Shown here: in pieces, positions 1,181 through 5,835 of the stretch
Position numbering within the stretch: position 1 is the stretch's first letter
Layout of the letters: every line of letters begins with the position of its first letter
Source: Phenylobacterium immobile (ATCC 35973)
GTDB taxonomy: Bacteria > Pseudomonadota > Alphaproteobacteria > Caulobacterales > Caulobacteraceae
Direction: 5' to 3'
Assembly: GCF_001375595.1 (NCBI RefSeq)
Contig: NZ_CVJQ01000001.1
Location: 620,001 to 684,000, forward strand
DNA: 64,000 bases
Program-made: the position numbers and the translations under genes
Notes under the pieces: model-generated
Seen by the model: the letters and a program-made list of their open reading frames with translations, nothing else
What the model was told of the DNA's origin: nothing
The model's database searches: none

Positions 1181-2275
1181 CTAGGCGGCGATCCGCGGCG
1201 CCGGGCCGACGTAGGTCGACAGCGGTCGGATCAGCCGACCGGTGGCCTGCTGCTCGCGGGCATGGGCGATGTAGCCGGCCATCCGGCCGACGCCGAAGAC
1301 GCAGGTGAAAGCCGCCGGCGGCAGGCCCAGGGCCTCCAACAGCAGGGCCGTGTAGAATTCAACATTGGTGTCGAGCGGCCGGTTGGGCTTTTTCTCCTTG
1401 AGCACCGCCAGCGCCGCGGCCTCGACGGCCTCGGCGAACGCCAGCCGTCCCGGCGCCATGCCGCCCTGGCTGGCCAGGTTGCGCACAGCGGCCTTCAGGG
1501 CGTCGGCGCGGGGATCGCGCACGCGGTAAATGCGGTGGCCGAAGCCCATCAGGCGGTCGCCGCGGTCAATGGCGGCCTCCAGCCAGGCGCGGGCGTTGGC
1601 GGGCTCGCCGATGTCGTCCAGCATCTCGATCACAGGCCCCGGCGCGCCGCCGTGCAGCGGCCCCTTCAGCGCTGACAGCCCGCCTAGGCCGCAGGAGACC
1701 AGGCCCGCGCGCGTCGCGGCGATCACCCGTGCGGTGAAGGTCGAGGCGTTCAGTCCATGGTCGCTGACGGTGACCAGATAGGTGTCCAGCGCCGCGGCCT
1801 CGGCGGCGCTGGGCTTGCGACCGTGCAGCATCGCCAGGAGGTCGGCGGCGTGGCCGAGGCCGGGCGTCGGGGCCAGGGGGGCCTTGCCGGCCTGGGCGCG
1901 CAACACCGCCGGCAGGAACACCGCCGGCCCCGCCAACAGGCGCAACGCCGTCGCCAGATCGTCGCCGTCGGCCAGTCGCGCGACCAGGGCGCGCACCGCG
2001 TCGAAAGGGCTCAGCGCCAGGAGGGCCTCGTCCAGCGGCGGCATGACCTTGAAGACCTCGGCGCGGGTCGCGGCGAGGGACGCCGTCAGGTCCGCCGGGA
2101 GATCGTCGAAGAAACCGTCAAACAGCAGGTTCGCCAGGTCCTCAAACCGCGCACGGCCCGCGAGCTCGTCCAGGGACCGGCCACGGATCACCAGGCGGCC
2201 AGCCTGGCCATCGACGTCGGAAAGGATGGTTTGGGCGACGACGATGTCTTCGAGACCATCGGAGATGTGGGGCAT
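1181..2275 (-). CDS. citrate/2-methylcitrate synthase family protein
   Basis: The 364-residue product has the citrate synthase fold, which condenses an acyl-CoA with a 2-oxoacid. Catalytic-region motifs are SDHGLNAST (His173), LHGG (His208) and MGFGHRIY (His247). The motif that normally holds the catalytic Asp reads NVEFYTA here, so Glu306 stands in that place. The protein is shorter than the hexameric type II enzyme and lacks its N-terminal extension, resembling the short dimeric forms. It diverges from a second citrate-synthase-like gene fused to a DNA-binding domain, 80 bases away. Whether it makes citrate, methylcitrate or another product is unknown. Confidence 0.82.
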   Translation of the reverse strand: MPHISDGLEDIVVAQTILSDVDGQAGRLVIRGRSLDELAGRARFEDLANLLFDGFFDDLPADLTASLAATRAEVFKVMPPLDEALLALSPFDAVRALVARLADGDDLATALRLLAGPAVFLPAVLRAQAGKAPLAPTPGLGHAADLLAMLHGRKPSAAEAAALDTYLVTVSDHGLNASTFTARVIAATRAGLVSCGLGGLSALKGPLHGGAPGPVIEMLDDIGEPANARAWLEAAIDRGDRLMGFGHRIYRVRDPRADALKAAVRNLASQGGMAPGRLAFAEAVEAAALAVLKEKKPNRPLDTNVEFYTALLLEALGLPPAAFTCVFGVGRMAGYIAHAREQQATGRLIRPLSTYVGPAPRIAA

Positions 2276-2335
2276 GGCGGGGGCCTTTCGTGGATCGTTT
2301 CGCCGTCGTCGTCGTCTCGATTGCGATCGTCAATC

Positions 2336-2352
2336 TTGATCAATATAATCAA
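2336..2352. promoter_or_regulatory. AT-rich inverted repeat in the divergent citrate synthase promoter region
   Basis: TTGAT, 7 bases, ATCAA form an inverted repeat in an AT-rich patch (2331-2357) that stands out from the GC-rich surroundings. It lies just 3 bases before the preferred ATG at 2356, between the divergent citrate-synthase-like genes. It is a plausible operator for the HTH-citrate synthase fusion itself or an extended -10 region. No binding data can be read from the sequence. Confidence 0.4.
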
Positions 2353-2355
2353 TAT

Positions 2356-3513
2356 ATGGACGGCGAGTGGATCGACGCGGCGGGCGCCTGCGAACGGTTG
2401 GGGATCAGGCCGCAGACCCTCTACGCCTACGTCAGCCGCGGCCGCCTCGCCGCTCGCGCAGATCCGATCGATCCGCGTCGAAGCCTCTATCGCGTCGGCG
2501 ATCTTGAGGCGCTCAGCGCGCGCAGGTCGCGCAGCCGCAAGGTCAGTGAGGTGGCGGCCGGCGCGATCGCCTGGGGCGAGCCGGTCCTTGAATCGCAGAT
2601 CACCGCCGTGATCCGCGGCCGGCTCTACTATCGGGGCCGTGACGCCATTCGTTTGGCTGAGACGGAGACCCTGGAGTCGGTCGCGCGCCTTCTGCGCGGC
2701 GGCGATGGCGTCGCCCTTAAACGTGATGACCGTCCCCGGCCGCCGACGGGGGACGCCTTGCGAGGCCGGCTGTTCGCCGCGCTCGCTGCGCGCGCCGCTG
2801 GCGATCCGCCGGCCTTGGGCCGCTCGCCGCATGTCCTGGCCGTGGAAGCCGCGACCCTCCTCGATGTCGTCGCCGACGCGGTCTGCGGCCAAGTCGCCAG
2901 CGGCGCTATCCATATCCGCCTCGCCATGGCCTGGGGGCAGGGGCCGGGCGGGGCGGGCGCGGACCTGATCCGCCGGGCGCTGGTGCTGATCGCCGACCAT
3001 GAGTTGAACGCCTCCGCCTTCGCCGCGCGGGTGGCGGCGGCGACCGGCGCTTCGCTGGCGGCCTCGGCCCTTTCCGGCCTGGGGGCGCTCTCCGGGCCGC
3101 GGCACGGCACGGCGGCCGACGCCGTGGGTCTGTTCTGGGATGAGGCCGAACGCCTGGGCCCGCCGGCCGCCGTCGCCAACCGCCTGGCGGAGGGCCGGAC
3201 GATCCCCGGCTTCGGGCATACGCTCTACCCGCACCGCGACCCGCGCGCAGACGCCCTGCTGGACCGGCTCCCACCAGCCCAGCGCGGCCAGGCGCTTGAG
3301 GCGGCGGTCGCCCGGCTAGCCGGGCTCGCCCCGAACGTCGATTTCGCCCTGGCCGCCATCGGCCGCGCCCTGCGCCTGCCCACCGATGCGATCTTCGGCC
3401 TCTTCGCCGTCGCCCGCACCGCCGGCTGGATCGCCCACGCGATCGAACAGGGCCAAGGCGACACCTTGATCCGCCCCCGCGCCCGCTACGTTGGCCCAAC
3501 CCCTGAGGTTTGA
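2356..3513 (+). CDS. citrate synthase-like protein with N-terminal helix-turn-helix domain
   Basis: The 385-residue product combines a MerR/excisionase-like helix-turn-helix (about residues 5-52: AAGACERLGIRPQTLYAYVS...RGRL) with a citrate synthase fold (about 75-385). Catalytic positions are present: DHELNAS (His215), RHG (His250), GFGHTLYPHRDPRAD (His288) and NVDF (Asp329). I prefer the ATG at 2356 because the HTH then starts at once; an upstream ATG at 2290 would add 22 residues overlapping the promoter region. Divergent orientation from the other citrate-synthase-like gene suggests local regulation, possibly with a CoA-ester ligand sensed by the enzyme domain. That last point is inference. 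Confidence 0.82.
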   Translation: MDGEWIDAAGACERLGIRPQTLYAYVSRGRLAARADPIDPRRSLYRVGDLEALSARRSRSRKVSEVAAGAIAWGEPVLESQITAVIRGRLYYRGRDAIRLAETETLESVARLLRGGDGVALKRDDRPRPPTGDALRGRLFAALAARAAGDPPALGRSPHVLAVEAATLLDVVADAVCGQVASGAIHIRLAMAWGQGPGGAGADLIRRALVLIADHELNASAFAARVAAATGASLAASALSGLGALSGPRHGTAADAVGLFWDEAERLGPPAAVANRLAEGRTIPGFGHTLYPHRDPRADALLDRLPPAQRGQALEAAVARLAGLAPNVDFALAAIGRALRLPTDAIFGLFAVARTAGWIAHAIEQGQGDTLIRPRARYVGPTPEV

Positions 3514-3595: not shown

Positions 3596-4396
3596 GTGCC
3601 GGACTGGATCTACGCCCTCATCCTGGGCGTCGTCGAAGGACTGACAGAGTTCATCCCGGTCTCATCGACCGGTCACCTCCTGCTGGCTAAGCAGGCGCTG
3701 GGCCTGCCCGGCGGCTTCTGGGACACCTTTTGCGTGCTGATCCAGCTGGGCGCGATCCTGGCGGTGGCGGCGCTCTACTTCACCCGCCTCTGGGCCGTGG
3801 CGACCGGCCTGGGCTCCAGCCCCGCGGCGCGGCGCTTCACCTTCAGCGTGCTGGCGGCGTTCCTGCCTGCCGCCGTTCTGGGCCTGGCGTTGCACGACGT
3901 GATCAAGGCGGTGCTGTTCGAGAGCCCGATCGTGATCTGCATCTCCCTGATCGTCGGCGGCGTCATCCTGATCGGCATCGACCGGTTCGCCCCGGCCCCC
4001 AAGCAGACCGAGGCCATGGACCTGCCCTGGAAGACCGCCTTCGGCATCGGTCTCTTCCAGTGCCTGGCGATGATCCCCGGCGTCTCGCGCTCCGGCGCGA
4101 CCATCGTCGGCTCCATGCTGCTGGGCGTCGAGAAGCGCGCCGCGGCGGAGTTCTCGTTCTTCCTGGCGATCCCCACCATGGCCGGCGCCTTCGCCGTCGA
4201 CGCCTGGCGGAGCCGCGACCAGATCGACCTGGACCACGCCTGGATCATCGCTGTCGGCTTCGTGGTGTCCTTCGCCGTGGCGCTGGTGGTCATCAAGGCC
4301 ATGCTCGCCTTCGTCAGCCGCCGCGGCTACGCGCCCTTCGGCTGGTGGCGCATCCTCGTCGGCGCCGCCGGCTTGGCGATCCTCAGCCTGCGCTGA
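3596..4396 (+). CDS. uppP: undecaprenyl-diphosphatase
   Basis: UppP (BacA) is the integral-membrane phosphatase that recycles undecaprenyl diphosphate to the monophosphate carrier used for peptidoglycan and other cell-wall polymers. The 266-residue product opens with the family signature GVVEGLTEFIPVSSTGHLLL (Glu14, Glu18, Ser23, His27) and has the second conserved patch PGVSRSGATI. It contains roughly eight hydrophobic helices. I place the start at the GTG at 3596, 5 bases after a strong AAGGAGG (3584-3590), instead of an upstream frame opening at 3491 that would overlap the preceding gene. It follows the HTH-citrate synthase gene by 82 bases. Confidence 0.93.
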   Translation: MPDWIYALILGVVEGLTEFIPVSSTGHLLLAKQALGLPGGFWDTFCVLIQLGAILAVAALYFTRLWAVATGLGSSPAARRFTFSVLAAFLPAAVLGLALHDVIKAVLFESPIVICISLIVGGVILIGIDRFAPAPKQTEAMDLPWKTAFGIGLFQCLAMIPGVSRSGATIVGSMLLGVEKRAAAEFSFFLAIPTMAGAFAVDAWRSRDQIDLDHAWIIAVGFVVSFAVALVVIKAMLAFVSRRGYAPFGWWRILVGAAGLAILSLR

Positions 4397-5452: not shown

Positions 5453-5627
5453 CTGCCGAAGGGCCCCAACTTGGAGGGAAGTTCTGGAGGGAGAGACGTG
5501 CCGGCCCTGCCGATAGACGATGCCGCCGGACGCCGCAACGCTCCGTGGTCGTTGTGCGCAAAGCATCCCATTGACCGACCGATCTGCGCGCACTAGAGAC
5601 AGCGCCTCGCGCGATCCGACGGGTCGG

Positions 5628-5714
<87 letters not shown>

Positions 5715-5835
5715 CCCGTCGGCGCGCGATTCTCCGCATATCCGATGGCCGACCACAGGCGCGCAAGCGCGGGCCTTACCGCGCCTCGCCATCCGCCTTA
5801 TATCGGGCGCGACAAAGCCGGAGCCTGAGCCCTCG

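Follow-up and report, generated by a model that had tools for sequence, protein, structure and literature searches.

A stretch of 64,000 nucleotides from the Phenylobacterium immobile genome (contig NZ_CVJQ01000001.1, positions 620,001 to 684,000; hereafter the window) carries two divergently transcribed genes for citrate-synthase-like proteins that share a conserved operator, and one of the two proteins has an N-terminal winged helix-turn-helix (HTH) domain. This fusion is likely to be a one-component transcription regulator whose sensor derives from citrate synthase and which controls both its own gene and that of the divergent enzyme. In the simplest model, its winged HTH would bind an operator of 26-27 base pairs (bp) before its own gene, and its citrate-synthase-derived body, having kept the oxaloacetate/citrate-binding and catalytic residues, would serve for sensing and oligomerisation and respond to a C4-C7 carboxylate, i.e. 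oxaloacetate, citrate or methylcitrate. The outcome would be autorepression of the fusion and metabolite-controlled expression of a backup citrate synthase. The domains, the operator and its linkage to the fusion, across genomes, across changing neighbours and at one target in trans, were established by computation. If the model is true, bacteria would sense the opening step of the Krebs cycle directly at the level of transcription, by means of a protein built from the enzyme of that very step.

The leftward, citB-type gene occupies positions 1181-2275 on the reverse strand (364 residues) and the rightward, citC-type gene 2356-3513 on the forward strand (385 residues). Coordinates, Pfam matches and structural model agree on a divergent citrate-synthase-like pair in which one member has an N-terminal DNA-binding domain, as proposed in an earlier reading of the letters alone (hereafter the sequence-only reading). 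In the rightward protein, the fusion, Pfam recognises Citrate_synt with 192 bits and HTH_17 at residues 11-53 with 26.2 bits (cut-off 27). Its AlphaFold2 model (mean predicted local distance difference test, pLDDT, 89.6; predicted template modelling score, pTM, 0.79) folds residues 5-58 as strand-helix-helix-strand-strand-helix, the order of a winged HTH (2368-2529, forward strand; motif QTLYAYVSRGR). Y23, S27 and R28 of this domain are found in every row of a 58-row alignment that contains the window protein twice, whole and trimmed. The domain had been called MerR-like. This would hold at most at the superfamily level, because the winged order is present but the scores for HTH_17 and for Pfam MerR (15.2 bits, cut-off 28.2) fall under their cut-offs; the fusion homologue at locus L098 does exceed the MerR_1 cut-off (23.1 against 21.6). 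A feature of the MerR family is a coiled-coil dimerisation helix behind the HTH. In the model of the fusion, helices 47-58 and 63-71 come after the HTH, then a stretch of low confidence at 64-76 and the citrate synthase domain; no long helix is seen, but the model comprises a single chain. We took ATG 2356 as the start codon. The alternative GTG 2290 gives a longer protein, whose frame would code through the operator, and was judged unlikely.

The putative citrate-synthase-like sensor domain covers residues 78-385 (2587-3510, forward strand), in which the active-site residues are kept while the large domain and a loop of the small domain are shortened. Foldseek places this body among citrate synthases, with CitA of Mycobacterium tuberculosis as top match (E 5.8e-14). 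None of the curated NCBIfam cut-offs among the matches listed is reached (best 146.8 against 421.3; NF009005 145.6 against 332), and by Pfam and NCBIfam together the fusion would be classed only as a diverged citrate synthase. The citrate synthase parts of the two window proteins are about 40% identical over 219 aligned columns. In a tree of 43 rows, for which the tool warns of long branches, 25 fusions form one group and 15 partners another, each with support 100/100, and the partners join Bacillus subtilis CitA (86/91). Because of these separate groups, we rejected the possibility that the fusion is a recent inverted duplicate of its partner.

The operator, GTCAATCTTGATCAATATAATCAATAT, lies at 2329-2355. 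The motif TTGAT-N7-ATCAA, already noticed in the shared promoter patch, is indeed present at 2336-2352 (half-sites at 2336-2340 and 2348-2352), and comparison across genomes reveals it as the core of a wider element of 26-27 bp, GTCAATmTTGAT-N7-ATCAATaT, whose operator core in the window reads ATCTTGAT-N7-ATCAATAT (2333-2355). With up to two mismatches, the pattern ATNTTGAT-N7-ATCAATNT occurs at one place on both strands of the 64 kb, for a chance expectation of 0.02; with up to three, the 24-mer TCAATCTTGATCAATATAATCAAT has a single site in the whole 3.33 Mb genome. A consensus scan predicts one sigma-70-like promoter for the fusion, TTGCGA-17-TATAAT, at 2321-2349 on the forward strand (mean of shuffles 0.0). 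By this consensus match, made in this genome, the -10 box lies inside the operator and the transcript would start about at the ATG. Relative to the citB start codon, the operator lies 54-80 bp upstream. Since it both covers the predicted -10 box of the fusion and lies upstream of citB, autorepression along with control of the divergent gene is the simplest model, and we regard repression with autoregulation as reasonably probable. The HTH as binder of the operator, repression as the sign of control and the identity of the ligand are what we infer.

A protein match at E ≤ 1e-20 was obtained in 24 of 40 relatives, the weak end of these matches taking in plain citrate synthases and fragments. In even samples, the fusion profile matches 33 of 289 genomes of the class (cut-off 1e-45), one of which (G187) has an alignment that begins at profile position 72 and leaves out the HTH, and 50 of 398 genomes of the phylum (1e-60), where it reaches families outside the class. 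The best 80 named loci listed include Phenylobacterium, Caulobacter, Hyphomonas, Bosea, Mesorhizobium, Microvirga and Caballeronia. A divergent citrate synthase gene lies upstream (tblastn, E ≤ 1e-8) at 74 of these 80 loci and at 21 of 30 class loci, one locus in each set being without upstream DNA. Of 68 pairs measured, 66 have their start codons 74-111 bp apart. Hits to citB at E ≤ 1e-75 were found in 27 class genomes. The 22 strong ones (E ≤ 1e-110, a line set after the gap was seen) are all in genomes with a fusion; 21 adjoin it by coordinates and in the other genome (G258) both genes lie at contig ends.

The operator accompanies this arrangement very closely. Within two mismatches, ATNTTGAT-N7-ATCAATNT was found at 91 of 95 divergent loci, duplicate-free by a shared 300-mer criterion (59 exact, 27 with one mismatch, 5 with two). 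In controls, 20 single-base shuffles per locus gave no match with fewer than three mismatches, and a stretch of equal length inside the gene none with fewer than five. The contrast supports the earlier suggestion that the pair is one unit with a shared control element. The 55 non-redundant sites were picked by pattern match and their inner positions are thus conserved partly by choice, but the outer T, C and A, which played no part in the anchoring, recur in 54-55 of them. Information drops below 0.5 bit in front of the G and is close to nil once five bases beyond the 3' end are reached. Depending on the locus, the operator overlaps or abuts the start codon of the fusion or sits up to about 20 bp before it. 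Because this offset varies, the element is conserved as DNA and not as protein code. At seven loci (L042, L056, L073, L079, L081, L087 and L108) its left part is swapped for the reverse complement ATCAAGATTGATCAA, as if the orientation of the half-site were free at that end.

Phylum loci were scanned after the pattern had been fixed. The scan covered 30 of the 51 matches, five of them already-seen DNA (including L178, which is the same as L088), leaving 25 new genomes. The operator is present within one mismatch in 23 of these, including all 17 with a divergent citrate synthase, and the two misses are L184 and L197. Six of the 25 loci come from outside the class, five of them with the operator. 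A strict version of the pattern gave 31 sites in the 289 class genomes: all nine with at most one mismatch are directly upstream of a fusion, as are two of the 22 with two mismatches. The 256 class genomes without a fusion match contain no near-exact site.

When the neighbour changes, the operator stays with the fusion. Among the 13 assessable loci of the first set that lack a divergent citrate synthase, nine have the operator within two mismatches (L058, L107, L117, L118, L119, L124, L130, L133 and L144). Beside the operator one then finds, as divergent gene, a family III coenzyme A (CoA) transferase (CoA_transf_3; L117, L130, L200, L202 and L203), a DUF2332 gene (L119, L124 and, in genome G206, L118), a methyltransferase (L133), DinB (L107) or a 2-hydroxyacid dehydrogenase (L198 by Pfam, L199 by a similar sequence start only). 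At L236 (G686) it is prpB, for methylisocitrate lyase (527 bits against 353), with prpC downstream on the same strand (724 against 550). On these comparisons, we consider the pairing of regulator and operator highly likely: very probably it is the fusion that recognises the site.

The pair had been described as self-contained. This does not hold throughout, since the operator also precedes unlinked DUF2332 genes in nine same-genus genomes, though not in that of P. immobile, where no DUF2332 gene was found. A scan of 23 genomes with up to two mismatches showed second sites with one mismatch in two same-genus genomes, upstream of DUF2332 and far from the pair, and no hit for the reversed pattern. 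Its sites with no or one mismatch number 25: 21 belong to fusion loci, the distant pair of G620 included, two to DUF2332, one to a transporter gene in G316 and one to G304. The site in G316, off the fusion and with one mismatch, lies within an ABC-transporter ATPase-like gene and was taken as chance. That in G304, an operator-like and nearly palindromic sequence with one mismatch, lies away from the fusion at G304:C4:345489-345514. DUF2332 loci scanned whole number 48, made up of all 18 matches from relatives and 30 of the 45 class matches. A site with up to three mismatches is present at 12 of them, and the reversed pattern hit one. Nine of these sites are the same-genus ones unlinked to the fusion (0, 1, 1, 1, 1, 1, 2, 2 and 3 mismatches), and the other three adjoin the fusion in one other genus. 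The same-genus finding rests on the loci L227, L228, L241-L243, L245-L248, L250 and L255. Sites were found at 12 of 19 loci from fusion genomes against none of 29 from genomes without a fusion match; we give no p-value because the genomes are not independent. DUF2332 is a probable member of the regulon of the fusion in the nine same-genus genomes, judging from the sites. A search limited to open-licence papers found none on DUF2332, which would here be tied to a regulator.

What might the fusion sense? The sequence-only reading had numbered His215, His250, His288 and Asp329 correctly; together with Asn218, Arg297, Arg354 and Arg373 they are invariant in all 53 aligned fusions (the window protein and 52 picked from the 80 named loci). 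In the 58 rows of distant loci, which again count the window protein twice, His215, Arg297 and Arg373 are always present and the remaining sites in 55-57. By correspondence with pig citrate synthase, we take these to be the oxaloacetate/citrate-binding and catalytic residues. Four positions after the catalytic His, 52 of 53 fusions have Pro where all 37 aligned partners have Lys or Arg, a position that contacts the CoA phosphate in the pig enzyme. The stretch up to Asp329, i.e. the interval from His288, has 41 residues in all 53 fusions against 55-59 in the partners, 14-18 fewer. Because the oxaloacetate/citrate contacts are kept while the base of the CoA site is replaced by Pro and the loop is shortened, we lean slightly towards a carboxylate and away from the CoA ester previously put forward as the signal. 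The argument is weakened by the 2-methylcitrate synthase 3o8j, which in the alignment has Thr, not Lys or Arg, at this position. The neighbours of the fusion (citrate synthase, methylcitrate operon, CoA-transferase) are compatible with both ligands. Some fusions have lost parts of the active site: that of L143 lacks His250, His288 and Asp329 with its HTH motif kept, and those of L184 and L144 have Gln at His288.

The leftward protein is, by all sequence criteria used, a type II citrate synthase of the PRK12350/NF009005 subfamily. Pfam Citrate_synt (PF00285) spans nearly the whole protein with 307 bits, NF009005 scores 440.7 against a cut-off of 332, and the identity with B. subtilis CitA is 36% over 361 columns. 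The catalytic and substrate-binding set H208, H247, E306, R256, R331 and R350 is kept in all 37 aligned partners. The Glu of NVEFYTA, singled out earlier for standing at the Asp position, is real and found in 37 of 37 partners, but it is not unusual: alignments show NVEF in B. subtilis and M. tuberculosis CitA as well, and we discarded it as the mark of a dead enzyme. The predicted model is less sure than that of the fusion (mean pLDDT 81.7 against 89.6). Pfam finds three citrate synthase genes in the P. immobile genome, a gltA-type gene and the divergent pair. A role of the leftward enzyme as methylcitrate synthase is unlikely here, because the best PrpB match in the genome scores 285.9, below the curated cut-off of 354.4.

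This pair is very probably the CitB/CitC pair of Caulobacter crescentus (PMC7083601), matched through the proteins of C. vibrioides OR37. That paper prints identities to B. subtilis CitA of 37% for CitB and 32% for CitC; in OR37 we obtained 37.1% for the leftward homologue and 30.2% for the fusion. Because these values are near the printed ones, CitC (of the pair CCNA_03757/CCNA_03758) is very probably the fusion and CitB the leftward homologue. According to the same paper, CitB restored an Escherichia coli gltA mutant and CitC did not, a strain without citB and citC did not accept the loss of citA, and CitC is treated as a paralogue lacking citrate synthase function (PMC7083601). Matched by identity, the citB-type protein would be a working citrate synthase and the citC-type one not, which goes against the enzyme roles implied by the sequence-only reading. 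Term searches of PMC7083601 gave no instance of 'helix-turn-helix', 'divergent' or 'operon'. In a second paper (PMC11475020) the part played by the CCNA_03757 promoter is just that of a negative control in a test of IscR binding. Our model would account for the presence in Caulobacter of a paralogue that lacks citrate synthase function next to a backup enzyme that has it.

The same data have been weighed under other explanations. The fusion might be a trigger enzyme, like the biotin ligase BirA: it would catalyse (methyl)citrate synthesis, on unusual substrates, and in addition act as repressor at its own operator. The catalytic residues, invariant in the 53 fusions and nearly so in distant loci, would suit this role, and the lost Lys/Arg alone need not mean lost activity, because 3o8j has Thr at that place. 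Yet, CitC gave no growth of an E. coli gltA deletion (PMC7083601), the segment from His288 to Asp329 falls 14-18 residues short of its length in the partners, and L143 has dispensed with three catalytic residues while keeping its HTH motif. We hold the trigger enzyme to be unlikely.

Far less probable is that the operator belongs to another regulator, the HTH of the fusion being idle or binding elsewhere. The half-sites TTGAT...ATCAA resemble FNR/FixK boxes, and at L058 the operator is kept beside a broken fusion frame. However, FNR/FixK half-sites are spaced by N4, whereas the N7 spacing is constant in nearly all loci, and on this ground we rejected such a box; all nine near-exact sites of the 289 genomes are at a fusion, with none in the 256 fusion-less genomes, and the site remains with the fusion when the other neighbour changes. 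We give slightly less credit still to control of CitB through protein contact in a mixed citrate synthase oligomer, DNA binding only setting the dose. Both proteins are citrate-synthase-like by sequence, the fusion also by fold search, and the 22 strong citB-type hits all fall in fusion genomes. But 11 of the 33 class genomes with a fusion match have no citB hit at E ≤ 1e-75, several citB-less fusion genomes have the operator beside unrelated genes, and identity between the citrate synthase parts is as low as about 40% over the 219 columns.

The reading of the fusion as an autoregulated sensor also has to face a number of discordant observations. Its HTH_17 match is slightly below the cut-off, and invariant catalytic residues are as compatible with a working enzyme as with a sensor. 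With a single operator site, the P. immobile genome shows no regulon larger than the pair. Four of the 95 divergent loci are at three (two loci) or four (two loci) mismatches, and in the class sample the strict pattern recovers the site in only 11 of the 33 genomes that have a fusion. Genomes that lack a fusion account for five weaker citB hits (E 1e-96 to 1e-77), and the line separating them from the strong ones was drawn a posteriori. DUF2332 genes of the fusion genomes G011, G040, G043, G048, G162 and G182 lack the site; a further locus, in G002, is without upstream DNA. At L197 (G620) the start of the fusion has no operator and two copies lie 2.7-2.9 kb upstream instead, beside a 2-hydroxyacid-dehydrogenase-like gene; on its own strand, the fusion is preceded by genes for a transporter and for a small protein. 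At L060, L098, L112, L143 and L184 the fusion is kept and the operator absent. Finally, L058 has only remnants of citB (3734-3838) and a broken fusion frame beside an exact operator; the locus comes from a metagenome assembly, and this configuration may be an artefact.

The loci without operator have their own contexts. L060 is an extra fusion copy among genes that are, from the printed sequences, thiolase-, acyl-CoA-dehydrogenase- and P450-like. At the other four, the upstream gene encodes cation efflux (by Pfam for L112 and L184, by printed sequence for L098 and L143), and citB beside the fusion has gone along with the operator while the HTH motif is intact; citB gave no hit at 1e-75 elsewhere in G316, the genome of L143. 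These four loci constitute a natural experiment on the purpose of the sensor. As a separate observation, second fusion copies without operator lie at L029 (G022) and L060/L030 (G004) among genes that the printed sequences suggest to be thiolase- and TetR-like.

Regulators derived from enzymes are a known kind, to which the fusion belongs, though we did not find its own family described. In trigger enzymes such as BirA and PutA an enzyme domain is joined to a DNA-binding domain and regulates its own genes; these are other enzymes, and for the fusion citrate synthase function was not found in the one probable homologue tested. In B. subtilis, citA has a divergently transcribed regulator, CitR. 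The leftward protein resembles CitA, a minor type II citrate synthase with NVEF, but CitR is a LysR-type protein and not a citrate synthase fusion. With type II citrate synthases and PrpC the fusion shares fold and active-site residues, but it adds an HTH, has a shortened large domain and small-domain loop, and forms its own group in the tree. BldC, according to PMC5859096, is a small MerR-like protein with a single winged HTH and no sensor domain that binds AT-rich repeats about one turn apart. The window operator is similar in repeating TCAA at steps of 10 and 9 bp, but the most constant parts here are the two inverted half-sites and the outer TCAAT, and the middle TCAA is lost in distant sites, so that simple BldC-like direct repeats fit only in part. 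Of the papers that searches of open-licence literature turned up, judged by title and start of abstract, apparently none deals with an HTH-citrate synthase fusion. Taken family-wide, it is fairly plausible that these proteins are a transcription factor family of Pseudomonadota in which a citrate synthase was turned into a sensor, its preserved active site reading oxaloacetate or (methyl)citrate, and in which one old operator switches genes of the substrate network. Its targets would be, with the same degree of confidence, the backup citrate synthase, the prpB-prpC methylcitrate cycle, family III CoA-transferases and the DUF2332 protein. The operator thus offers experimenters a defined DNA site together with a question of ligand.

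Elsewhere in the window, the open reading frame at 5520-5828 overlaps a tRNA-Leu gene with anticodon cag (5628-5714) and probably does not represent a gene of its own.

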